Shown piece after piece: positions 21,994 through 34,093 of a stretch of DNA of 35,561 nucleotides. The stretch lies in assembly GCA_001781915.1 (NCBI GenBank), contig MFMU01000006.1, positions 1 to 35,561 on the forward strand, written 5' to 3'. The notes beneath the pieces are model-generated. The model was not told where the DNA came from. It saw nothing but the letters and a program-made list of their open reading frames with translations, and did no database searches. Made by a program: the position numbers and the translations under genes. This stretch comes from Candidatus Kaiserbacteria bacterium RIFOXYD1_FULL_47_14 (GTDB lineage Bacteria > Patescibacteriota > Minisyncoccia > Phycocordibacterales > Phycocordibacteraceae). Position 1 is the stretch's first letter. Each line of letters starts with the position of its first letter.

Positions 21994-22671
21994 TCAAGTC
22001 CGGCGGCCGAACTTTTGCCACTCGATAAATGAGCCGGCTTTGAGTTCCATATCATCGGCGGGGCGAACGAAACGCCAATTCCCTTTCGGGACGAGATTAT
22101 AATACGGAAGCTCATCCAGCGTGTCGGCAATATTCCAGAGGTCTTTTTCTGCGGTTATCCAGTCGGTATCGAAGCGGCGCATATCGAGCGGTTTCGAGTA
22201 CTGTTCGAGCACTTTTTCCCGCGTCTCGTTGATAAACCATTCATGAAAATAAGAGAGCGCGAGTTCGCGCGGCGTGCGGTAGATCGGATCGCGAAACCGA
22301 AGGCAGGCGTGATTCGTCTTACTGATTGCGCCGAATCGCCCGCCACGCTTATAGAGTGCGACGACATGATCGAAATCGCCTCGTCCCCAGCGCGGCGAGA
22401 GATTCATAATGAGCGGCGGTTCTCCCGCTATCCAGAGTGCAGCTGCCGCGAGAAGCGCGCCTTCAATACAGTGCGCTTTCTTTTCTTTCAAAACGCGCCT
22501 CGGAGAACGATGGGTGTCGCCTTCTTCTTCCCAATTCATCGGGAGTGTATCGAGAAAGTCCTGAATCTTGATCGGCGTCGAGAGACGCGCAAGCGTCTCA
22601 TATTCATTCAATGTTAATCCGGATGATATGCGAGAGAGGTGTTTTATGGTGAGTGAGGTCGAACCATTCAT
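21994..22671 (-). CDS. Transglutaminase-like cysteine-protease-fold protein
   Basis: 225 residues, no signal peptide. HCIEGALLAAAALW carries a Cys at the start of a helix, followed by DFDHVVALY (His) and ISKTNHACLRFRDPIYR (Asn/Asp), the order of a transglutaminase or papain-like Cys-His-Asp site. The middle part (SYFHEWFINETREKVL) and the acidic C-terminus are unfamiliar. It resembles an uncharacterised bacterial family I recall only as hypothetical; function unknown. It starts 18 nt after the 3D-domain gene and is probably co-transcribed with it. Confidence 0.6.
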   Translation of the reverse strand: MNGSTSLTIKHLSRISSGLTLNEYETLARLSTPIKIQDFLDTLPMNWEEEGDTHRSPRRVLKEKKAHCIEGALLAAAALWIAGEPPLIMNLSPRWGRGDFDHVVALYKRGGRFGAISKTNHACLRFRDPIYRTPRELALSYFHEWFINETREKVLEQYSKPLDMRRFDTDWITAEKDLWNIADTLDELPYYNLVPKGNWRFVRPADDMELKAGSFIEWQKFGRRT

Positions 22672-22689: not shown

Positions 22690-23241
22690 TTATTTGAGCG
22701 CGAGGTCGCTACCACCCTTAACGAGCGCAACGAGATCCTCCTGCGTCTTTGGGAGACGGCTCGGACGAGAGATATCGACGAATCCGACTACGCGGACAGT
22801 CGCACCAGTACAAACACCGAGCACCGAGCTCGCATTTCTAGTCGTGCCGTTCGTCCTCGTATAGTTCGACTTCGTACTGAAGAGAATATCGATATAACCA
22901 GTATAACGCGCATTCATCGTATCAGCGATGACGCGATACCCAATGATTGGTTCTACGGTTTTATAGCCACAAGAACCGCCTGATTCTGCAGGGGCATCAA
23001 TTTCGATAATCGTACCGAATGGAAGTTTTTCCGCGAGATCGCGCGAACGCGCCGCGACAATCTCCGGATTTGAGTATGCGCCAGAGGCGGTCTCAAAAGG
23101 GTTTCCGTCGGTCTGTGAAGACACCGCATTATACGCAGTGATTGTCACTGGATAACTCGGCAATACCGGCGCCGATGCGGATAACGCAAGAGAGGCGCTT
23201 GGTAAAAGGAAAAAGCCCATAAGGGCTCCTAGGGTTGTCAT
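22690..23241 (-). CDS. Secreted 3D-domain (double-psi beta-barrel) protein
   Basis: 183 residues with a signal peptide (LGALMGFFLLPSASLALSAS). The 3D fold is indicated by VTITAYNAVSSQTDGNPFETASGA, LPFGTIIEID and YRVIADTMNARYTGYIDILF with its Asp residues, as in the MltA/Rpf-type murein lytic domain. The pair of Cys (GGSCGYK, GVCTGA) could form a disulfide. Likely acts on or binds peptidoglycan outside the cell. Promoter at 23286-23314, leader of about 38 nt. Confidence 0.75.
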   Translation of the reverse strand: MTTLGALMGFFLLPSASLALSASAPVLPSYPVTITAYNAVSSQTDGNPFETASGAYSNPEIVAARSRDLAEKLPFGTIIEIDAPAESGGSCGYKTVEPIIGYRVIADTMNARYTGYIDILFSTKSNYTRTNGTTRNASSVLGVCTGATVRVVGFVDISRPSRLPKTQEDLVALVKGGSDLALK

Positions 23242-23316: not shown

Positions 23317-24588
23317 GTGCGAAGAATGAACTTTTGTACCGATTCATACGCCCGAAAAAGCTTGTGTATTATCGCATTTTTCTGTGTTGCAGGAATGGTA
23401 TTATTACGAGAGTTGCTTCCTATGAACTTCCATTTCTTAGTGAATATTATCGCATTGCTCTTTTCCTTCTTTGTTGCAGGAGTGCTTCTGGGTGCAATTT
23501 TCTCTGAGTCCATTCAACTTAGGATCGCAAAACTTCTCCATCTTCAACATCTCTTGCTCGACCGGTATGCACGCAATCCGATTCTGAGACCGGGAACACG
23601 CCCCTGGAATGCGGAAGCTGTTCTTAACCCGGCGGCCGCCGTACTCGGCGGCCGGACGCATCTTATCTATCGCGCTGTCGGTACGGACGGCGTCTCGCGT
23701 CTCGGCTATGCGAGCAGTGCTGACGGCATTGTTTTTGATAAATTACTACCATATCCCATTTATGCAGCACAAAATCCGGGCGGTACGCTTCCCAGCTCGC
23801 AACGCCGTTATTCTCCGGTTATGTATCCTTCTGGTGGTAGTTGTGGCGGTTGTGAAGATCCGAGAATGGTTCTCCTTGACGAGCGCATCTATGTCACCTT
23901 TAATATGTTTGACGGTTGGAATTCCATTTGCGTCGCGGTTATTTCAATTGCACAAGATGATTTTCTCGCCGGACGATTTGGAGAATGGAACGGACCGCAT
24001 ATTTTATCGAAACCGCACGAAATCCAAAAAAATTGGGTGCTCTTCCCAGAAAAAATCGACGGCCGATTTGCAATTCTACACAGCATCGCGCCTGAAATAG
24101 AAATCGCCTATCGCGATTCTCTCGAAGAGGTCGGCACGACCGAACCATTCATTACCAGCTGGATCGGTTCGCGCAACGACTTGCCAGCGCGAGATGGTTG
24201 GGACAGTTTTGTCCGCGGTGCAGGGCCGCCGCCCGTGCGAACCGATATCGGGTGGCTTCTTCTTTATCACGCATTCAACGAATATGATAAAGGAACGACA
24301 GTTGGCTATCGGGTCGGCGCGATGTTGCTCGATCTCGTTGACCCGACCAAGGTTCTATATCGCGCCGTCGCACCAATTCTCTCGCCAGACGAAACATACG
24401 AGAATGAGGGCAAGCCCGGAGTCGTCTATGCCTGCGGCGCGGTCGTCCGAGACGAAAAACTTTTCGTTTATTATGGCGGAGCGGACAAGGTTGTTTGCGT
24501 CGCAACTGCCTCCCTTCAATCTTTTCTTGATGCTCTAACAGAAGGAGGTCGTCCTACTCTTACCCCCCAGAAAACTCAAACTATGTAA
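23317..24588 (+). CDS. Membrane-anchored GH130-family glycoside phosphorylase
   Basis: 423 residues. Two TM helices at the N-terminus (about 13-31 and 36-60), then a five-bladed propeller domain of the GH130 type: NPILRPGTRPWNAEAVLNPAA, IYRAVG, GCEDPRMVLL (about 178), LFPEKIDGRFAILH, GWLLLYHAFNEYD and YYGGADKVV. GH130 enzymes mostly split beta-mannosides with phosphate to give mannose-1-phosphate; the EDPR motif and YH are family hallmarks. Both TM helices place the domain on the cytoplasmic side if the N-terminus is inside. Start is GTG 23317 or ATG 23326. One base before the next gene. Confidence 0.85.
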   Translation: MRRMNFCTDSYARKSLCIIAFFCVAGMVLLRELLPMNFHFLVNIIALLFSFFVAGVLLGAIFSESIQLRIAKLLHLQHLLLDRYARNPILRPGTRPWNAEAVLNPAAAVLGGRTHLIYRAVGTDGVSRLGYASSADGIVFDKLLPYPIYAAQNPGGTLPSSQRRYSPVMYPSGGSCGGCEDPRMVLLDERIYVTFNMFDGWNSICVAVISIAQDDFLAGRFGEWNGPHILSKPHEIQKNWVLFPEKIDGRFAILHSIAPEIEIAYRDSLEEVGTTEPFITSWIGSRNDLPARDGWDSFVRGAGPPPVRTDIGWLLLYHAFNEYDKGTTVGYRVGAMLLDLVDPTKVLYRAVAPILSPDETYENEGKPGVVYACGAVVRDEKLFVYYGGADKVVCVATASLQSFLDALTEGGRPTLTPQKTQTM

Positions 24589-24589
24589 C

Positions 24590-26536
24590 ATGTTTGTCAT
24601 TCGCCGAGATCTTGACAACCCGATTCTCTCGCCTCGCCGCGAACATCCGTGGGAGGCACTTGCTGTATTTAATCCGTCTGTTATTCGCGAGAAGAACGGT
24701 TGGAAGATGTATTATCGAGCACTCTCAAATCCATCGGCACTGGTCTCTTCGTACGCAGGACAATCAACCATTGGCGAAGCATTTTCCGAAGACGGCACTC
24801 ACTTTAATGTACGACGACAAATACTTGTTCCGGAACAATCATGGGAATCATTCGGTTGCGAAGATCCGAGAGTTACTATCTTTGAAGGCGTTTCGTACCT
24901 CTCCTACACAGCACTCGGCGGATATCCCTTTTCAAAAGATACGATAAAAGTCGGTATCGCCGTCGCACGAGATGGAAAAAATTTTACTGAACGGCATCTC
25001 GTCACGCCTTTTAATGCAAAAGCATTCGCTCTATTCCCCGAACGCATCGATGGCAAAGTTGCAGCACTTTTGACTATTCATACTGACGAACCACCTGCCG
25101 AAATATGTTTGGCATATGCCGACCATATCAATGACTTCTGGTCACCAGATTTCTGGAACGAGTGGTACACAAGTTGGCAATCACACAAACTCTCATTCAA
25201 ACGCAATAACAACGACCATATTGAAGTTGGGAGCGTTCCGATACTCACCAAGGATGGTTGGCTCATCTTCTATTCCTATATAGAAAATTATTTCGGTGGC
25301 AGCGAACGGGTCTTTTCGGTTGAAGCGGCACTTCTCGATCGCGACGATCCGTCAAAAATCATCAATCGCACTGAATCAATTTTCGTCCCTGAAGAAATCT
25401 ATGAACTGTATGGTCTCGTACCTAATATAGTTTTCCCCACCAGCGCAACCATTCTTCGTGGAAGCCAGGCGTCCACAGCAACTGTGGACGCCTGGCTTCC
25501 ACAGCAAGACATGCTTGAAATATGGTATGGAGCAGCGGACACCGTTTGCGCAAAAGCAAGTGTGAAATTAAACGATTTGTTGCGGGACTTGGATCCAGAA
25601 AAACCAGCGCGCACCTTCACGCGTTCCGAAAAAAATCCAATTCTTGCTCCTCATGGCGATGGATTCGAGAGCCACGAGGTGCTGAATGCTGCCGCGATTG
25701 ATATCGACGGCTCGGTCTATATTCTCTATCGCGCGATGGATGCCGCGAATACTTCTACCATCGGACTCGCGATTTCTCATGACGGCATCACTATTAATGA
25801 GCGCCTGCCAGAACCAATTTATGCGCCGCGCGCCGATTTCGAAATGAAGAAAGGCAGCGCCACTGGCAATTCCGGCTGCGAGGATCCGCGCATCGTGTGC
25901 ATTGGCGACACACTTCATATGACCTACACTGCCTATGATGGAGTGCATGTGCCGGCAGGAGCTATCTCCTCTATCAGCGTTGAGGACTTTCTTGCACGAC
26001 GATGGGAAAAGTGGAGCGTACCTTTCATCCTCACTCCCGAGGGCGTTGATGATAAAGACCTCGCTCTCTTGCCTGAAAAAATCGGCGAAAATTATCTACT
26101 CTATCATCGTATCAATAACCAGATTTGTGCTGATCTCCTTCCTGATCTCTCCTCGGGTAAATGCGCGAGCCGTTGTATCGAAGTTATCGCGCCGCGACTT
26201 GGTATGTGGGATGGACTGAAGGTCGGCAGTACGGCACCGCCGATTAAAGTCGGCAATAATTGGCTGATGATTTACCATGGCGTCTCGCGCCACGGAACCT
26301 ATCGCCTTGGCGCCGTACTCTTGGATGCTTCAGGTACTTCTGTCCTTGCTCGTACTGCTGACCCGATCTTCGAACCAATAGAAAAATACGAGCACGAGGG
26401 AGCAGTCGCGAATGTTGTCTTTTCCTGCGGTACAGTTGTCCGCGGCGACACTATCTTTCTCTACTACGGCGCCGCCGATAAAGTGCTTGGCGTCGCGACC
26501 GCTTCGCTAGCGCACATTGTTGATGCACTGACATGA
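24590..26536 (+). CDS. Tandem GH130 protein (two propeller domains)
   Basis: 648 residues made of two GH130 domains. Domain A (about 1-335): NPILSPRREHPWEALAVFNP, GCEDPRVTIF (89), LFPERIDGKVAAL; its YH-type site reads IFYSYIENYF, so the His is lost. Domain B (about 340-648): NPILAPHGDGFESHEVLNAA, GCEDPRIVCI (429), LPEKIGENYLLYHRI, WLMIYHGVSRHGTY, complete. I infer domain B is active and domain A degenerate or binding-only. A 45-bp palindrome (25458-25502) is translated as GSQASTATVDAWLPQ in domain A. The stop overlaps the HAD start by 4 bp (ATGA). Confidence 0.85.
   Translation: MFVIRRDLDNPILSPRREHPWEALAVFNPSVIREKNGWKMYYRALSNPSALVSSYAGQSTIGEAFSEDGTHFNVRRQILVPEQSWESFGCEDPRVTIFEGVSYLSYTALGGYPFSKDTIKVGIAVARDGKNFTERHLVTPFNAKAFALFPERIDGKVAALLTIHTDEPPAEICLAYADHINDFWSPDFWNEWYTSWQSHKLSFKRNNNDHIEVGSVPILTKDGWLIFYSYIENYFGGSERVFSVEAALLDRDDPSKIINRTESIFVPEEIYELYGLVPNIVFPTSATILRGSQASTATVDAWLPQQDMLEIWYGAADTVCAKASVKLNDLLRDLDPEKPARTFTRSEKNPILAPHGDGFESHEVLNAAAIDIDGSVYILYRAMDAANTSTIGLAISHDGITINERLPEPIYAPRADFEMKKGSATGNSGCEDPRIVCIGDTLHMTYTAYDGVHVPAGAISSISVEDFLARRWEKWSVPFILTPEGVDDKDLALLPEKIGENYLLYHRINNQICADLLPDLSSGKCASRCIEVIAPRLGMWDGLKVGSTAPPIKVGNNWLMIYHGVSRHGTYRLGAVLLDASGTSVLARTADPIFEPIEKYEHEGAVANVVFSCGTVVRGDTIFLYYGAADKVLGVATASLAHIVDALT
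25458..25502. repeat. 45-bp perfect nested palindrome in tandem GH130 (21-CAA-21)
   Basis: Arms GTGGAAGCCAGGCGTCCAC plus AG around CAA, all 21 pairs intact. Differs from the miaA copy at one arm position (C to A) with the matching G to T in the other arm. Read in the same frame as the clpB copy (RGSQxST). Confidence 0.95.
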
Positions 26537-27306
26537 AGCTTATTATTTTCGATTTAGACGGGACACTCGCCGAGAGTAAACAACCGCTCACCAGTGAGAT
26601 GGCAGCGATCGTCGCGAAACTTCTTACTCATACCAAAGTCGCGGTCGCTTCAGGTGGCGCTCTTCCACAATTTATAAAACAAGTAGTTGACCGATTGCCG
26701 AGTGATACTAATCTCGCAAATCTCTATTTCCTGCCCACCTCCGGTGCCGCACTCTATGAATTCCACCCCTCGACTTCGCTCGGGGCAGGAAATAGCAATT
26801 GGAATAAGATTTATGAAGAACGCCTTTCAGAAAAAGAAGCTCACACTATTGAAACGGCAATGCGCGAAGCAGCCGCCGAGACCGGACTTATCGATTTTTC
26901 AGAACCTGCGTACGGAGAACGCATTGAATATCGCGGCGGCCAAGTAACTTTATCAGCACTCGGGCAAGAAGCACCTCTCGCAGAGAAAAAAATGTGGGAT
27001 CCTGAACATATCAAACGACATCTGCTCCAAGCAAATATTTCAGCACGACTGCCGGAATTCTCGGTCGGTATTGGCGGCTCCACGAGTATTGATATTTCTA
27101 AACGCAATATCGATAAGGCCTACGGCATTCGACAGCTCTGTAATCGTCTAGACATCGATGAATCAGATGTACTCTATATCGGCGACGAACTTGAAGCGGG
27201 AGGTAATGATGAAGCCGTCTACAAAACTAATGCGGAAACGAAAAGTGTCACTGGTCCCACAGAGACCGCACAATTTATCGAAAATCTCCTAAGTAAAGAT
27301 GTCTGA
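26533..27306 (+). CDS. HAD-IIB protein resembling eukaryotic-type phosphomannomutase
   Basis: 257 residues. Catalytic FDLDGTLAES (nucleophile D7, acid D9), SGGALPQF, a cap region, and YIGDELEAGGNDEAVY. The cap RIEYRGGQVTLSALGQEAPLAEK lines up with human PMM2 IEFRNGMLNVSPIGR...EER, and FSVGIGGSTSIDISKRNIDKAY with its FSIGGQISFDVFP..WDKRY. Two of the three PMM2 substrate-binding arginines are changed here (to Q and K), so it may be a sugar-phosphate phosphatase rather than a mutase. In operon with GH130 genes, mannose-1-phosphate is the obvious candidate substrate. A palindrome-bearing insert (HPSTSLGAGNS) lies at about 77-87. Confidence 0.75.
   Translation: MKLIIFDLDGTLAESKQPLTSEMAAIVAKLLTHTKVAVASGGALPQFIKQVVDRLPSDTNLANLYFLPTSGAALYEFHPSTSLGAGNSNWNKIYEERLSEKEAHTIETAMREAAAETGLIDFSEPAYGERIEYRGGQVTLSALGQEAPLAEKKMWDPEHIKRHLLQANISARLPEFSVGIGGSTSIDISKRNIDKAYGIRQLCNRLDIDESDVLYIGDELEAGGNDEAVYKTNAETKSVTGPTETAQFIENLLSKDV
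26724..26795. repeat. 13-bp inverted repeat bracketing a small hairpin in the HAD gene
   Basis: CTATTTCCTGCCC (26724-26736) returns inverted as GGGCAGGAAATAG (26783-26795). Just before the second copy is a hairpin CCTCGA-CTTCGC-TCGGGG (26768-26785). The first copy encodes conserved LYFLPTS; the second lies in the apparent insert. Confidence 0.7.
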
Positions 27307-27311
27307 CCTCT

Positions 27312-29018
27312 TTATTGGCGCATAAGACGCACGAGGCGGATGATTTCAAAAGAGTGGCGACCGCCAAGCGAATGAAAGACGGGAGAAAGTTTATCGCCGC
27401 TTGTCGCAGCGAGCGCTTCGTGAATCTCGCCGACACTATCAAATGGCACGAGATGCGCGAAGTCGGTGCGGGTTAACTTCCCTATTTCGGCGAGTTCTTC
27501 CAGATGCTTTACGATAGTTGACGCAGTGAGCCCGCGCGCTTTTGCGACCTCTTTTAATGTTTTTGAATCTCGTGCGGCCTGGAGTGTTTCTGCCAATCTT
27601 CCCGGCAATCCTGTTATGTGGGGACTTCGTAAGTCCCCATTTGATGTTGACTTACGAAGTCCTAACTTCGATTCGGATTTCGTGCTTGTATCAAACCACG
27701 CCCCGCCCATCGCTTTCACAAATTTTTTCTGCATACTCGTTACTTCTGTTTCTGACATCTCTGCGAATGCATCCCGCGCCGCGTCTGACGCGGCGCGAAA
27801 ATCCCGATCCTTCTCGAGAATCTCCGGATGTACTTCGAGTGCGCGCTGATTCAATCCAGTAAGATACACTCCAGAAAGCCGCCGCACGCGCGAAAGCGCG
27901 ACATATCCCTGCCCATATTCAAACGCTTTCGATAGATCCATAATCGCGGCATCCATACTCATTCCTTGGCTTTTATGCACCGTCATCGCATAGGCGAGCC
28001 GAAGCGGATACTGTGAGACACTTGCTTTTACCTTACCCTGTTCTTCAAGCTGCCACTCCATCGGCTCAGTCGTTATCCTCAAACCATCTTTTGTTTTAAT
28101 AATCGGCGAGCCATCAGCATCCCATCCAATGACGACACCAAGCGTCCCGTTCACGAATCTCCCTTGCGGAGAATTTTTGGTAAACATCACTGTCGCGCCA
28201 TCTTTTAATTCCAAAATTTCTGGTGAGAGGCATCCGCGTTTTAATCCTTCGACAAATGAGTCCTTCCCTTTCGAATTCATAGTAAATTTCTTTGACTTGC
28301 CGGAAAGCTTTTCGAGTTCACTCGCATTAATACGGTCGACATCGGCGTTATGCGAAAATAATTTTGGTACGGAGGTTTCCAAGGTCCGACCTTGGAAATC
28401 TATTCGACGCTTCATTAAAAGTTCGTAATGCATCTCTTCAACATTCCCTGAGCGAATCGCCGAGAGCACGCCGAGAAACTCATTGTCATCTTGCCGGTAT
28501 TGCTCCGTGAGATAACAGGTCAACAAATTCAGCTCGCGCCACACTTTCGATTCATAGGCGAATTTCACTTCGCGATCTCTTGAAATAGGCGGCAGTTGGA
28601 AGAAGTCGCCGACGAGAATAACCGAGAGCCCGCCAAAGGGCGCATCCATACGCCGTACCTCGCGACATATCTTGTCAGCCATTTCGAAGGTTGCCGCTGA
28701 GAGCATCGAGATTTCCTCTATAATGAGCACTTTCGCTTTCATTATGCGTTTCGCGATATGCTCTTTACTCGCGATGCGATCCACATCAGCTGGCGAAAGC
28801 GAGTCGCTAATGCCAATACCGCTCCAAGAGTGGAGCGTCATACCAGCGACATGCGTCGCCGCGATGCCCGTCGCCGCGGTTACCGAGGGTTCAATACCCG
28901 AAGCGCGCAGCCACGCAACAAATTCATTTATCGTGTGCGTTTTCCCGCTCCCCGGCTCGCCGGTGAGGAATACATTCGCGCCTGTCTTCAGTATAGTGAG
29001 CGCCTCGCATTGTGTCAT
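27312..29018 (-). CDS. Pif1/RecD2-like superfamily 1 helicase with C-terminal HTH
   Basis: 568 residues. ATP-dependent 5'-3' helicase: Walker A FLTGEPGSGKTHT (about 16-28), Walker B VLIIEEISML, motif III LVGDFFQLPPI, TEQYRQ, and the late motifs YAMTVHKSQGMSMD and GYVALSRVR. After about 400 the protein carries a region unlike Pif1 cores and ends with a helix-turn-helix (TLKEVAKARGLTASTIVKHLEELAEIG). Three palindromes are in frame: 28376-28398 (DFQGRTLET), 27775-27797 (RAASDAARDAF) and 27620-27662 (LGLRKSTSNGDLRSPHI). Likely roles are G-quadruplex or stalled-fork processing. Confidence 0.88.
   Translation of the reverse strand: MTQCEALTILKTGANVFLTGEPGSGKTHTINEFVAWLRASGIEPSVTAATGIAATHVAGMTLHSWSGIGISDSLSPADVDRIASKEHIAKRIMKAKVLIIEEISMLSAATFEMADKICREVRRMDAPFGGLSVILVGDFFQLPPISRDREVKFAYESKVWRELNLLTCYLTEQYRQDDNEFLGVLSAIRSGNVEEMHYELLMKRRIDFQGRTLETSVPKLFSHNADVDRINASELEKLSGKSKKFTMNSKGKDSFVEGLKRGCLSPEILELKDGATVMFTKNSPQGRFVNGTLGVVIGWDADGSPIIKTKDGLRITTEPMEWQLEEQGKVKASVSQYPLRLAYAMTVHKSQGMSMDAAIMDLSKAFEYGQGYVALSRVRRLSGVYLTGLNQRALEVHPEILEKDRDFRAASDAARDAFAEMSETEVTSMQKKFVKAMGGAWFDTSTKSESKLGLRKSTSNGDLRSPHITGLPGRLAETLQAARDSKTLKEVAKARGLTASTIVKHLEELAEIGKLTRTDFAHLVPFDSVGEIHEALAATSGDKLSPVFHSLGGRHSFEIIRLVRLMRQ
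27620..27662. repeat. Palindromic element inside helicase (GACTTCGTAAG class)
   Basis: GGGGACTT-CGT-AAGTCCCC, then CTTACGAAGTCC after 14 nt. Matches 928-971 in dus base for base across both arms including the ATGTGGGG lead-in; only the interior differs. Same strand and frame in both hosts. Confidence 0.85.
27775..27797. repeat. 23-bp perfect palindrome in helicase (11-T-11)
   Basis: CGCGCCGCGTC-T-GACGCGGCGCG, encoding RAASDAARDA. Same length and single-base centre as 28376-28398 and 7155-7177. Confidence 0.75.
28376..28398. repeat. 23-bp perfect palindrome in helicase (11-C-11)
   Basis: TTTCCAAGGTC-C-GACCTTGGAAA, sharing the AAGGTC-N-GACCTT core with the topA and ftsQ elements. Encodes FQGRTLET. 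Confidence 0.8.
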
Positions 29019-30439: not shown

Positions 30440-33400
30440 TTATTTCGTGAGGATTGCGCGAACTTTATTGATAATCGCTTCATCAGCATTAAAGGCATGA
30501 AGCGCTGTGGCAACTGAATTTATTTCCGAGATGGTAAGGTCTGAACTGGAAGAACCTTTATTGAGTTCTGCGCGTGTGAGCTGGCCAACGAATCCTGTAT
30601 TCGCTACACCTTTCGCCTTTTGAAATGCTCGTACGGCTTCTTTCGTCTGCATTCCAAAATATCCTGTCGCGCCAGCTGGAATAGCATATCCGCCGTCAAT
30701 TAGGAACTGCTGGAGCGCCATCACATCAGCTCCGCGCGAGCCGACTGCGAGATTATTCACGAAATTATACACCGCAACACCGAGCACTTGACCTTGTGCA
30801 TGAGTCGGTGTCACGGCAGTTGCAACGGCTTGAGAGCAAGACATCTTGTCAGGATTCCAGACGAAACCATAACCGCAGGCATTTCCTCCGCTGCTTCCGG
30901 CAAGAATATTTGTCGTTTGTGTGTAAGAAGCAAACTTCGTGAAGTGTTTCGTCCAGATCACAAGATCTGATCCGACATCGATTTTACATTCGCTGTCTGC
31001 AGCGAGAGTGTTACCAGTCGCCTGATTATCAGCGGTACAGGTGTTCGTAATTTCAGTGAAGTCAGTTCCCGGTCTCGAATACCCTGCTCTCTTACCTGCC
31101 TGATTCGGAAGAAGAATTCGTACTGCTTCGTCGAACGACAATTTAGCACTGGCAAATCCAACTTCAATAGCTGCGCCCAAGGTCTTCGTCTCTCCTGAAG
31201 TTACCGGCAAATCTACCGTCGTTACTGTCGGAGCGGAGATAACACCGTTCCAAGTAGCGTCCGCGCTCGTGACCTTCGTCGCCGGGATCTCTATCGTTGC
31301 GGCTGCAGCATTCCCCGAACCGGCAGTAGAAGTAATCGTTATCTTCGGAATATCGCCCATTCCGCTACTAATGAACGAACTTACATCGATTTTTGCATCG
31401 GTCGTTCCGCTGCTGATCGTAACCGCTACATCCTGAGTCGGGTTGGTGATAACTACCTGTGGCTTTGTGGAATCAACATTCGCAGAACCGGTATTATCCG
31501 GAGCAACTTGCGTCGCCGCCAAAACAGTAACGGTTACTATGTAGCCCTGTGTCGTTCCGTTCGCCGCTGTAACTCGATATGTTTTTGTTGTGGCGAAATT
31601 ATTTGCCGTCGTTGCGCTTATCTGTGTCGTCTCGCCAATTGATACTCCAGCTCCCGTAGTGACGAATGTCGCAATAAGTACTGTAACATCTGTACCGTTC
31701 GGCACATTTACCGAGATTGTGTGGTTGATCTCATTGATAACTCCTGTGGCTGCCGGAGTTGCGAAGTTGAAAGCTGTAATTGCTTTGGCTGGATTAAGAG
31801 CTACTGTTACAGTAACATCATATGTTTGAGTTGTTCCGTCAACAGCAGTGACCGTGTAAGTTACTAGGTTAGTGAAATCTTGCGCGACTCCAAAAGATGG
31901 ACTCACCGATACTCCAGTCATTGTGATTGTTGGAATAAGGGCAGTAACATTTGTTCCAAACGGAACAGTTATTGCGACTGTTTTTGCGGTTTCATTAACG
32001 ATGCCTGTAGCGGCCGGAGTAGCGAAATTGAAAACAGTAATCGCTTTAATGTCGCTCAGCGTTGTCTTTGTGTCATCAATGTAATACGGCTTATAGGTCA
32101 CATTACCGTTCGCAGAAATCTTTGCTATAACATCTGCTACTACCGCAGTGCCCCACCAGTTATTCGTCGCATCGATCAAAACTCCGTTTCTGTTATCTAA
32201 CGCTTGTCCAGAATCTAAAAACTTGTTTTCGCGTATACCCGATACGGTAACGCCGGCTTTGTGAATAAGTAACGCTCTGCTGTCCCAGTTGTTGAAAGTG
32301 TTACCGCTAATAGTAACGGCTCCCATAGTTGCTGTCCCTGAGGTTTTTAAGTTGGTTGTGAACACGACCATAGAACCGCCGCCAGCACCATTACCTTGCA
32401 CATCGTTATTATTGAAGGTGACTGCGCCAGTTAACGCGTTGTCGAGTTCAGCTCCGATAAATACACTGCCACTGCCGCCAGAACCGGATGGTTCAAAGAT
32501 GTTATTGCTTATATCAACACCATCAACATTGTAGAGTTCAAGATTCGTTCCGACAGGTGAGTTGAATGTGTTGTGGGTAATGCTCCAGTTTGAATGAACA
32601 GTGGCAACCCAAGATGCATACATCGCCGTGGAGTCACCACTCAATGTAATAGTATTGTGGGTTACGGTCAGACCTGTGGAATTTGGGTATCCGGGTCCAT
32701 TAGTGCTCACGCCCCGTACTAAGATACCCATATTTTGACCTGCGGTAGTGATAGTGTTGTTGCTAATCGTTATATTGTGAGTCGCAACGGGGCTACCAAC
32801 ACTGCCGATAACTATGCCTTGAGCAGAATCCAAAGCACTGCCTTGGGGAGTAATGGTAAAACTGTCAACAGTAACCGGATGATCTGCTGGCGACGCATCT
32901 ATTTCTACACCAGGGCCTGTTGTTGGAGCGATGGTGGCTCCGGCAGTGCCCTGCAAGGTTAGACCTTTATCAATAACTACATTTTCAGCATAAGTACCCG
33001 CAGCAACATTAATTGTGTCCCCAGCAGACGCGGCAGTAACAGCCGCCTGAATAGTGTCATAGCCCACACCGGTCGTTACATTGAGGACCTTCTTGGTCTC
33101 AAAAGTAGTGAAGTGGCTCGCATCGAAAGTAAGAGTACCGTCATGAGTCGCCGCGTCGTAAGTAATACCTGAAAGTGTTGGATAATTTGTGCCGTCTGTC
33201 GAGGGAATTACTGTGCCAGCATCATTTTTAACAACAATGTTCGGCACATCAGTAAAGCCGAGTGCGTTAAGACCGTATATCTTGATTTGTGCTCCGGCGT
33301 TCTTCAAGAGATAAGCCGTCTGAGCATCGAACTTCATACTGCCTGCCGATGCTTCCATTTTGCTACCAAGTCCCTGCAGAAAAGTATTTGTTGACGAAGC

Positions 33401-34093
33401 AGTAAGGTCCATAGATGCACTGAATGTTACGCGTCCCTTGTCTGTCTTCTCAAAATAGAGTCCCGAACAGCCAGTCGGGACAGAAGCACAGGTGTCGATA
33501 TTAGTATCAATCTCCTGTCCTGCGAGAGTCGTCTTAATATCACCAAATATCGCCGTATAATCAGGACCATTTCCTCCTCCGCCTCCTTCGCCATTAGACG
33601 CATTTTTGGTAGGGCTACTAGAAATTGACCAATTTGTCCCATCAAACGAGCCCGATTGTACGGCCGTAGGTACCGTTCCGAGTCCTGTTGTGGTTGGATA
33701 GTTATCACCAGCTACAGTACCGTAGATTATCCTATGTATAAGAACTGGTGTACCACTATTATCGTAAAGCCCGATGGAATCGCCTGAGTTATTTAATTTG
33801 TCAGTTCCAACATCAAAAGCTAAGACACCGCCAGCTGAAATTGTACCCGATAGCAAAAGTAGATCCGCTTGAACTGGCGTTCCTGATGGGTTAGTAAGTT
33901 CAGTTAATTTCCACCCAGCAAGATCTATTGAACTTCCTGTTGTATTTAAGAGCTCAACCCACTCTGTGGCCGATGCCGAAGAAAATTCATTAATGATAAT
34001 CGACGGAGCGTCAGCAAATACGCTCGGAGCAGCGATACCAAAAACAAGAATAGAGAAAAGAAGAGGTACAGAAAAACGCAAGACCTTATTCAT
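30440..34093 (-). CDS. Giant surface protein: LTD, beta-helix, repeat and peptidoglycan-binding domains
   Basis: 1217 residues, secreted (signal peptide FSVPLLFSILVFGIAAPSVFADA). In order: lamin-tail domain (about 30-125, IIINEFSSASATEWVELLNTTG...DLAGWKL); a Gly-rich hinge (about 170); a beta-sandwich; a right-handed beta-helix (about 336-670, starting YDTIQAAVTAASAGDTINVAAGTY, with repeated N-N-T/I turns); two tandem copies of an AIT(V/A)FNFATPAATG...TYDVTVTV module (about 684 and 769, DUF5018-like); further beta domains; and a PG_binding_1 domain (about 1110-1180, VGSRGADVMALQQFLIDGGY...AVRAFQKAKG). It probably decorates the cell wall and binds sugars or host surface. Thr/Ser/Val-rich composition and no palindromes. 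Confidence 0.85.
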   Translation of the reverse strand: MNKVLRFSVPLLFSILVFGIAAPSVFADAPSIIINEFSSASATEWVELLNTTGSSIDLAGWKLTELTNPSGTPVQADLLLLSGTISAGGVLAFDVGTDKLNNSGDSIGLYDNSGTPVLIHRIIYGTVAGDNYPTTTGLGTVPTAVQSGSFDGTNWSISSSPTKNASNGEGGGGGNGPDYTAIFGDIKTTLAGQEIDTNIDTCASVPTGCSGLYFEKTDKGRVTFSASMDLTASSTNTFLQGLGSKMEASAGSMKFDAQTAYLLKNAGAQIKIYGLNALGFTDVPNIVVKNDAGTVIPSTDGTNYPTLSGITYDAATHDGTLTFDASHFTTFETKKVLNVTTGVGYDTIQAAVTAASAGDTINVAAGTYAENVVIDKGLTLQGTAGATIAPTTGPGVEIDASPADHPVTVDSFTITPQGSALDSAQGIVIGSVGSPVATHNITISNNTITTAGQNMGILVRGVSTNGPGYPNSTGLTVTHNTITLSGDSTAMYASWVATVHSNWSITHNTFNSPVGTNLELYNVDGVDISNNIFEPSGSGGSGSVFIGAELDNALTGAVTFNNNDVQGNGAGGGSMVVFTTNLKTSGTATMGAVTISGNTFNNWDSRALLIHKAGVTVSGIRENKFLDSGQALDNRNGVLIDATNNWWGTAVVADVIAKISANGNVTYKPYYIDDTKTTLSDIKAITVFNFATPAATGIVNETAKTVAITVPFGTNVTALIPTITMTGVSVSPSFGVAQDFTNLVTYTVTAVDGTTQTYDVTVTVALNPAKAITAFNFATPAATGVINEINHTISVNVPNGTDVTVLIATFVTTGAGVSIGETTQISATTANNFATTKTYRVTAANGTTQGYIVTVTVLAATQVAPDNTGSANVDSTKPQVVITNPTQDVAVTISSGTTDAKIDVSSFISSGMGDIPKITITSTAGSGNAAAATIEIPATKVTSADATWNGVISAPTVTTVDLPVTSGETKTLGAAIEVGFASAKLSFDEAVRILLPNQAGKRAGYSRPGTDFTEITNTCTADNQATGNTLAADSECKIDVGSDLVIWTKHFTKFASYTQTTNILAGSSGGNACGYGFVWNPDKMSCSQAVATAVTPTHAQGQVLGVAVYNFVNNLAVGSRGADVMALQQFLIDGGYAIPAGATGYFGMQTKEAVRAFQKAKGVANTGFVGQLTRAELNKGSSSSDLTISEINSVATALHAFNADEAIINKVRAILTK

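Follow-up and report, generated by a model that had tools for sequence, protein, structure and literature searches.

The best described relatives of the locus analyzed here are the beta-1,2-mannoside phosphorylases Teth514_1788 and Teth514_1789 of Thermoanaerobacter, for which a route from mannose-1-phosphate (Man-1-P) to GDP-mannose was proposed (PMC4264767), and the beta-1,2-mannosidase BT3780 of Bacteroides. In BT3780, Lys199 is the determinant of beta-1,2 specificity and Glu268 one of two proposed base residues (PMC4599007). According to Cuskin et al. (PMC4599007), carboxylates in place of the phosphate ligands turn GH130 enzymes into hydrolases. Two intracellular GH130 proteins of a Microgenomates genome are mentioned, without detail, in PMC7143001. 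A literature search for GH130 together with GT108 gave no result, and no description of this form in Patescibacteria was found in the open-licence literature; covering open-licence papers only, the search is weak evidence of novelty.

The window, a stretch of 35,561 nucleotides from Candidatus Kaiserbacteria bacterium RIFOXYD1_FULL_47_14, belongs to a 628-kb genome which is 93.9% complete. Three consecutive genes on its forward strand, P1 to P3 (Table 1), are separated by a gap of 1 bp (P1/P2) and an overlap of 4 bp (P2/P3). The GH130 profile PF04041 matches P1 with one domain (E 4.9e-33) and P2 with two domains (E 9.9e-85), all three above the gathering score, and no other GH130 domain was found in a profile search of the genome. 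A sequence-only reading had described a three-gene operon for a one-domain GH130 protein, a two-domain GH130 protein and a phosphomannomutase (PMM)-type HAD protein, which was borne out by the coordinates and the Pfam matches. The same gene order is repeated in relatives (L005-L009, L041, L045). A promoter and terminator scan revealed nothing above chance.

Table 1. Features of the GH130/HAD operon, with positions in the window
Feature	Position	Strand	Basis or remark
P1, GH130 protein	23317..24588	+	PF04041; 423 aa from GTG, likely start ATG 23422 giving 388 aa
P1 transmembrane helix, one, conserved	23434..23502	+	hydropathy and conservation in L005-L008
P1 GH130 domain (D2)	23545..24540	+	residue alignment
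P2, tandem GH130 protein, 648 aa	24590..26536	+	PF04041, two domains
P2 domain A (D3), putatively hydrolase-like	24590..25594	+	alignment, AF2, Foldseek, tree
P2 domain B (D4), phosphorylase site complete	25601..26533	+	residue alignment
P3, PMM/alpha-PGM-type HAD-IIB protein, 257 aa, putative phosphomannomutase/phosphoglucomutase	26533..27306	+	4bnd match, fold, residues

Several genes on the minus strand flank the operon. The convergent neighbour (27312-29018), which is kept in Kaiserbacteria, encodes a PIF1-like helicase carrying an HTH_40 domain at its C-terminus; a functional tie to the operon is not evident. The genes at 21994-22671 and 22690-23241 encode two small proteins that are conserved in Kaiserbacteria and match no Pfam family; the second of these looks secreted and 3D/RlpA-like as judged by eye. 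The product of 30440-34093 (1217 aa) combines a Lamin Tail Domain with a peptidoglycan-binding domain.

For comparison of the active sites, D2, D3 and D4, represented by 27 copies per domain, were aligned with BT3780, BACOVA_03624, 4onz, Teth514_1788 and Teth514_1789, after the published BT3780 residue numbers had been confirmed to fall on the correct letters. The best solved relatives of all three domains are the Thermoanaerobacter beta-1,2-mannoside phosphorylases, and Asp142 (the acid), Lys199 and Asp363 in BT3780 numbering are invariant in 81/81 domains. Domain B possesses the full phosphorylase site (D432, K489, H506-R507, K544, H563, Y571-R572). The D, H, R, K/R, H and Y of the Teth514_1788/1789 site are present in domain B of 27/27 loci, as is a lysine at the Lys199 position. 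Judged by these residues, a phosphorylase can be predicted with confidence for domain B alone among the three GH130 domains.

Domain A differs from this pattern. The loss of the YH site, pointed out before, was confirmed (S229 takes this position), but described the change incompletely, as the phosphate-site R and K are also lost and an invariant glutamate, E212 (codon 25223-25225), is present. The three basic phosphate ligands of a phosphorylase are absent from domain A, and among the 27 loci the corresponding positions of D3 are occupied mostly by T, by H or Q, and by S or A. E212 falls into the Glu268 column of BT3780 in three MAFFT modes, with Glu in 27/27 loci and Gly in all D4 domains. 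An earlier placement of E212 opposite the phosphate-site Lys was discarded once real hydrolase chains were included in the alignment. The acid D92 (24863-24865) is retained, and D92, K144, D166 and E212 are invariant over the 27 loci. Since the phosphate ligands are lost and a Glu occupies the Glu268 column, and considering the findings of Cuskin et al. (PMC4599007), domain A is read as hydrolase-like. Confidence in this reading is only moderate, because Tyr302 of BT3780 is replaced by Phe and the second carboxylate, D166, which lies near Glu227 of BT3780, is aligned imprecisely (the loop alignment is about two residues off). The AF2 model of domain A (pTM 0.80) has the GH130 fold (Foldseek E 1e-20), with phosphorylases closest overall. 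In a quick tree, D3 forms its own clade (SH-aLRT 100) and does not group with the Bacteroides hydrolases, by which descent from Bacteroides-type hydrolases was ruled out; the hydrolase-type residue thus appears to have arisen independently, that is, by convergence. P2 would therefore be a GH130 fusion of a phosphorylase domain and a hydrolase-like domain whose hydrolase-type residue is of independent origin.

P1 was expected to be anchored by two transmembrane helices, of which one did not hold. The first hydrophobic stretch requires translation from GTG 23317. In L005, L007 and L008, a stop codon precedes the conserved Met by a few codons, so that only one helix is conserved (from M36, ATG 23422, onward). 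The homologues of L009 and L041 carry a comparable single helix. A basic flank on the C-terminal side of the helix places the enzyme domain on the cytoplasmic face, as predicted by the positive-inside rule. In P2 and P3, the catalytic domains begin at the N-terminus, leaving no space for a signal peptide. The best PDB matches of P1 are 9fj8 and 7fip, the Teth514 beta-1,2-mannoside phosphorylases. D2 keeps the acid of the EDPR motif (D181), K238 and the mannose-binding residues; none of the mannose-site residues Asp (acid), Lys, Asn, Arg and Asp varies among the 27 loci. In the phosphate site, S replaces R and V-R replaces K-V, so that the Arg is shifted by one position, while YH is kept; P1 therefore lacks the full set of three basic phosphate ligands of a phosphorylase (S for R, V for K). 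This exchange is correlated among the D2 domains. Deep lineages contain R and K and mostly Q instead of H; the group of the window contains S, N, T or A instead of R and retains H, and its K is replaced by a different residue, in most cases Thr or a hydrophobic one, with an adjacent Arg. In six P1 homologues (L042, L043, L044, L048, L049, L050), the helix is replaced by a histone-like, Lys/Arg-rich tail of 40-70 aa, which may bind the membrane or a polyanion.

P3 matches PF03332 (PMM, E 1e-10) and HAD-IIB. Its best PDB match is the alpha-phosphoglucomutase (alpha-PGM) of Lactococcus lactis (4bnd, E 1.8e-34), followed by PMMs with 3e-13 and weaker. The same order was obtained for its AF2 model (pLDDT 90.9; 4bnd at the top of Foldseek with E 6e-28 and TM 0.86, then PMMs). 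Structure prediction, which the sequence-only reading had named as a check of the active sites, points to an alpha-PGM/PMM fold for P3 and to a GH130 fold for domain A. The HAD DxD and the C-terminal GxGGND-type motif (D7, D9, D218, N225, D226) are present in 37/37 Patescibacterial homologues. The positions of Arg134 and Arg141 of PMM2 are occupied by Q145 and K152 (Q in 36/37, K in 37/37 homologues). The absence of these two PMM arginines had been correctly recorded as a peculiarity, but does not require a special explanation, as Gln and Lys are also found in 4bnd; it is therefore no argument against mutase activity of P3. A defective PMM was ruled out as well, the substitutions being clade-wide and common to 4bnd. 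On the sugar side, D187 corresponds to the Asp of PMMs in 35/37 homologues, whereas 4bnd has Asn.

The distribution of the HAD protein was compared with that of the classical enzyme (PF02878) in 380 genomes. The HAD was found in 57 and PF02878 in 281 of them, 48 having only the HAD, 272 only PF02878 and 9 both, compared to about 42 co-occurrences expected if both were independent (Fisher p 4e-24, which is overstated since the genomes are related). Genomes having the HAD without PF02878 are included in 21 of the 24 families with the HAD. The 22 genomes with a GH130 array are divided into 8 with the HAD only, 11 with PF02878 only, one with both and two with neither (G132, G251); in the window's genome, PF02878 was not detected at 93.9% completeness. 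In five array-less genomes, the HAD homologue adjoins a gene for a TIGR01479-type mannose-1-phosphate guanylyltransferase (ManC-like). Homology, fold, operon linkage, the mutual exclusion with PF02878 and the ManC-like linkage provide good evidence for P3 being a phosphomannomutase/phosphoglucomutase, with either substrate possible. The mutual exclusion also speaks, indirectly, for a mutase and not a phosphatase. Across the phylum, the HAD is likely a non-orthologous replacement of PGM/PMM, which, if true, would correct many 'missing PGM' calls. Two array operons contain a heptose-1-phosphate adenylyltransferase-like gene (RfaE domain II), in one case between cupin and HAD and in the other as a fusion with the HAD (L081:2262-3084 in G366; L049:10211-11458 in G043). 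Its product might activate Man-1-P to NDP-mannose.

A stand-alone type-II mannose-6-phosphate (Man-6-P) isomerase cupin (PF01050-type) adjoins the array in the loci of eight relatives. The window's genome encodes one copy outside the operon; a LAGLIDADG endonuclease-like ORF is found near it (L105:8804-9484, contig C3). The cupin match lies above the cut-off in only 11 of the 22 array genomes. Pfam searches of the window's genome did not detect a ROK kinase, phosphoglucose isomerase (PGI, PF00342), glycogen phosphorylase or a PF00483-type GDP-mannose pyrophosphorylase, absences which are provisional at 93.9% completeness. Its sole PF00483 gene is RfbA-like and located beside an RfbC-like gene. 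Since neither PF02878, PGI, a ROK kinase nor glycogen phosphorylase was detected and the only PF00483 gene is RfbA-like, a GDP-mannose route fits poorly and a route to fructose-6-phosphate (Fru-6-P) fits best. No mannoside importer was identified, and no import or secretion genes were found beside the array.

Phosphorolysis of mannosides to Man-1-P and its conversion to Man-6-P without ATP, as suggested at the outset, can be upheld with regard to the site of domain B, the mutase candidate P3 and the isomerase gene in the genome, but not for all domains as phosphorylases, given the hydrolase-like domain A and the altered phosphate site of P1. On balance, it is fairly probable that the operon represents a cytoplasmic, reversible beta-1,2-mannoside phosphorolysis module connecting Man-1-P via Man-6-P to Fru-6-P. 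Domain B would cleave terminal beta-1,2-mannosyl residues reversibly with phosphate, yielding alpha-mannose-1-phosphate. P3 would interconvert Man-1-P and Man-6-P and probably also glucose-1-phosphate (Glc-1-P) and glucose-6-phosphate (Glc-6-P), and the cupin encoded elsewhere would link Man-6-P to Fru-6-P, no ATP being spent. For domain A, the most likely role is that of a non-phosphorolytic partner, such as an inverting mannosidase-like one, which would trim or bind the same chain, and P1 might tether the proteins that handle mannan to the cytoplasmic side of the membrane. Speaking against the module are the location of the cupin gene outside the operon, the cupin match in only half of the array genomes, the two array genomes with neither mutase, the failure to identify a mannoside importer, the need of RfbA for Glc-1-P, and the Phe and the imprecisely aligned D166 of domain A. 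Like the activities, the linkage, the direction, any complex and the source of the substrate are predicted from sequence. The operon and one cupin gene would form a complete ATP-free link between beta-mannosides and Fru-6-P, which predicts a specific substrate or polymer and bears on hexose acquisition or storage in Patescibacteria without recognisable upper glycolysis.

Phosphorylases are reversible, and the array could also build and mobilise an internal, mannogen-like beta-1,2-mannan reserve without nucleotide sugars, from Fru-6-P via Man-6-P and Man-1-P by cupin and HAD, with domain B extending the chain by reverse phosphorolysis. We regard this as unlikely, even though Teth514_1788/1789, running in reverse, make 1,2-beta-oligomannan from Man-1-P (PMC4264767) and Leishmania stores beta-1,2-mannan (PMC3290622). 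The lack of detected glycogen phosphorylase and PF00483-type GDP-mannose pyrophosphorylase, and of adjacent genes for import or secretion, is in line with a reserve, and the membrane or polybasic tethers of P1 would be suitable for synthesis at an organised site. However, such a polymer is not known in these cells, a primer is not known either, reverse phosphorolysis requires a high Man-1-P/Pi ratio, and no ROK-type hexose kinase for precursor supply was found in the genome. With neither an importer nor a mannose nucleotide-sugar enzyme identified in the genome, a mannogen-like reserve would explain an intracellular, partly membrane-tethered array about as economically as catabolism of scavenged mannosides; catabolism or general interconversion is put ahead of storage only because it can do without two unknown parts, a primer and a polymer. 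An extension of the storage idea, in which an ancient Patescibacterial multi-propeller GH130 machine, with three or four domains (phosphorylase, hydrolase-like, tethered, decayed) that are fused or lie side by side, makes and mobilises intracellular beta-1,2-mannan without nucleotide sugars as a bacterial counterpart of Leishmania mannogen, is speculative and quite unlikely.

It is somewhat doubtful that P3 serves mainly as a general phosphoglucomutase for dTDP-rhamnose or envelope sugars, its location in a mannoside operon being secondary. The alpha-PGM as best relative, the RfbA-like gene beside the RfbC-like gene, by which the genome needs Glc-1-P, an array-less HAD gene near a Glc-1-P thymidylyltransferase gene (L095) and the presence of the HAD in many genomes without arrays would fit such a role, but the 4-bp overlap with P2, a linkage that recurs in several genera, the five ManC-like neighbours and the PMM-like D187 argue against it, and without a detected PGI the source of Glc-6-P is in doubt. 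Similarly tentative is the view of domain A and P1 as catalytically dead modules that bind mannan and feed domain B: both have lost phosphate ligands and D1 of the ancestral array is clearly decayed, yet D92, D166, E212 and K144 of domain A and the mannose-site residues of P1 are invariant, and a pure binding module would need neither the acid nor E212. GDP-mannose transfer of the GT108 type is very improbable. Leishmania MPT-2 and MPT-4 share the fold of the domain A model (Foldseek E 3e-8 to 7e-7), but the similarity to GH130 is far greater for every domain (for the domain A model, Foldseek E around 1e-7 for GT108 versus 1e-20 for GH130), a PF00483-type GDP-mannose pyrophosphorylase was not found in the genome and domain B keeps its phosphate site; a GT108 identity was rejected on these scores and on sequence hits that did not include MPT-2 or MPT-4.

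GH130 was found in 55 of 380 genomes of the phylum, and a multi-domain array in 21 besides that of the window. Outside the class, several lineages have a tandem in the first protein as well, resulting in four GH130 domains in two genes; in L062:7636-11481 (G370), all four are contained in a single protein of 1281 aa. D1, the most N-terminal of the four, has degenerated in every case seen, and its place is taken by the transmembrane helix in Kaiserbacteria and by the Lys/Arg-rich tail in several sister lineages (L042-L044, L048-L050). D2, D3 and D4 cluster by position in the quick tree (SH-aLRT 98, 100 and 83, respectively), with the exception of the D4 of L054, which is placed beside D2. The array therefore most likely originated once by duplication and was then kept as a unit. 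It is a new architecture built from known enzyme families. In L052:11320-12675 (G067), an MGH1-like glycoside hydrolase of the mannosylglycerate hydrolase type directly follows the array.

Compared to known systems, the Leishmania mannogen enzymes MPT-2 and MPT-4 (GT108) share the beta-1,2-mannan chemistry and a GH130-related propeller fold, but are eukaryotic and remote in sequence and fold score, and MPT-2 depends on GDP-mannose. Teth514_1788 and Teth514_1789 (PDB 9fj8, 7fip) match all three domains best in sequence and domain A best in fold, and domain B has all active-site residues compared, including the beta-1,2 lysine. In contrast to the tandem domains with a HAD mutase described here, for which no transporter or PF00483-type GDP-mannose pyrophosphorylase was found, they are single-domain enzymes from a cluster for GDP-mannose salvage that includes an ABC transporter. 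With BT3780 and BACOVA_03624 (PDB 5a7v, 3qc2), domain A has in common the Glu of the Glu268 column, the absence of phosphate-binding basic residues, the acid and the specificity Lys; unlike these secreted single-domain Bacteroides enzymes, it belongs to another clade, carries Phe for Tyr302, is fused to a phosphorylase domain and is apparently cytoplasmic. The alpha-PGM of L. lactis (PDB 4bnd), a member of the eukaryotic-type PMM family, is the top sequence and fold match of P3 and shares Gln and Lys in place of the two PMM arginines, whereas P3 keeps the PMM-type Asp where 4bnd has Asn and belongs to a family tied to mannose genes.
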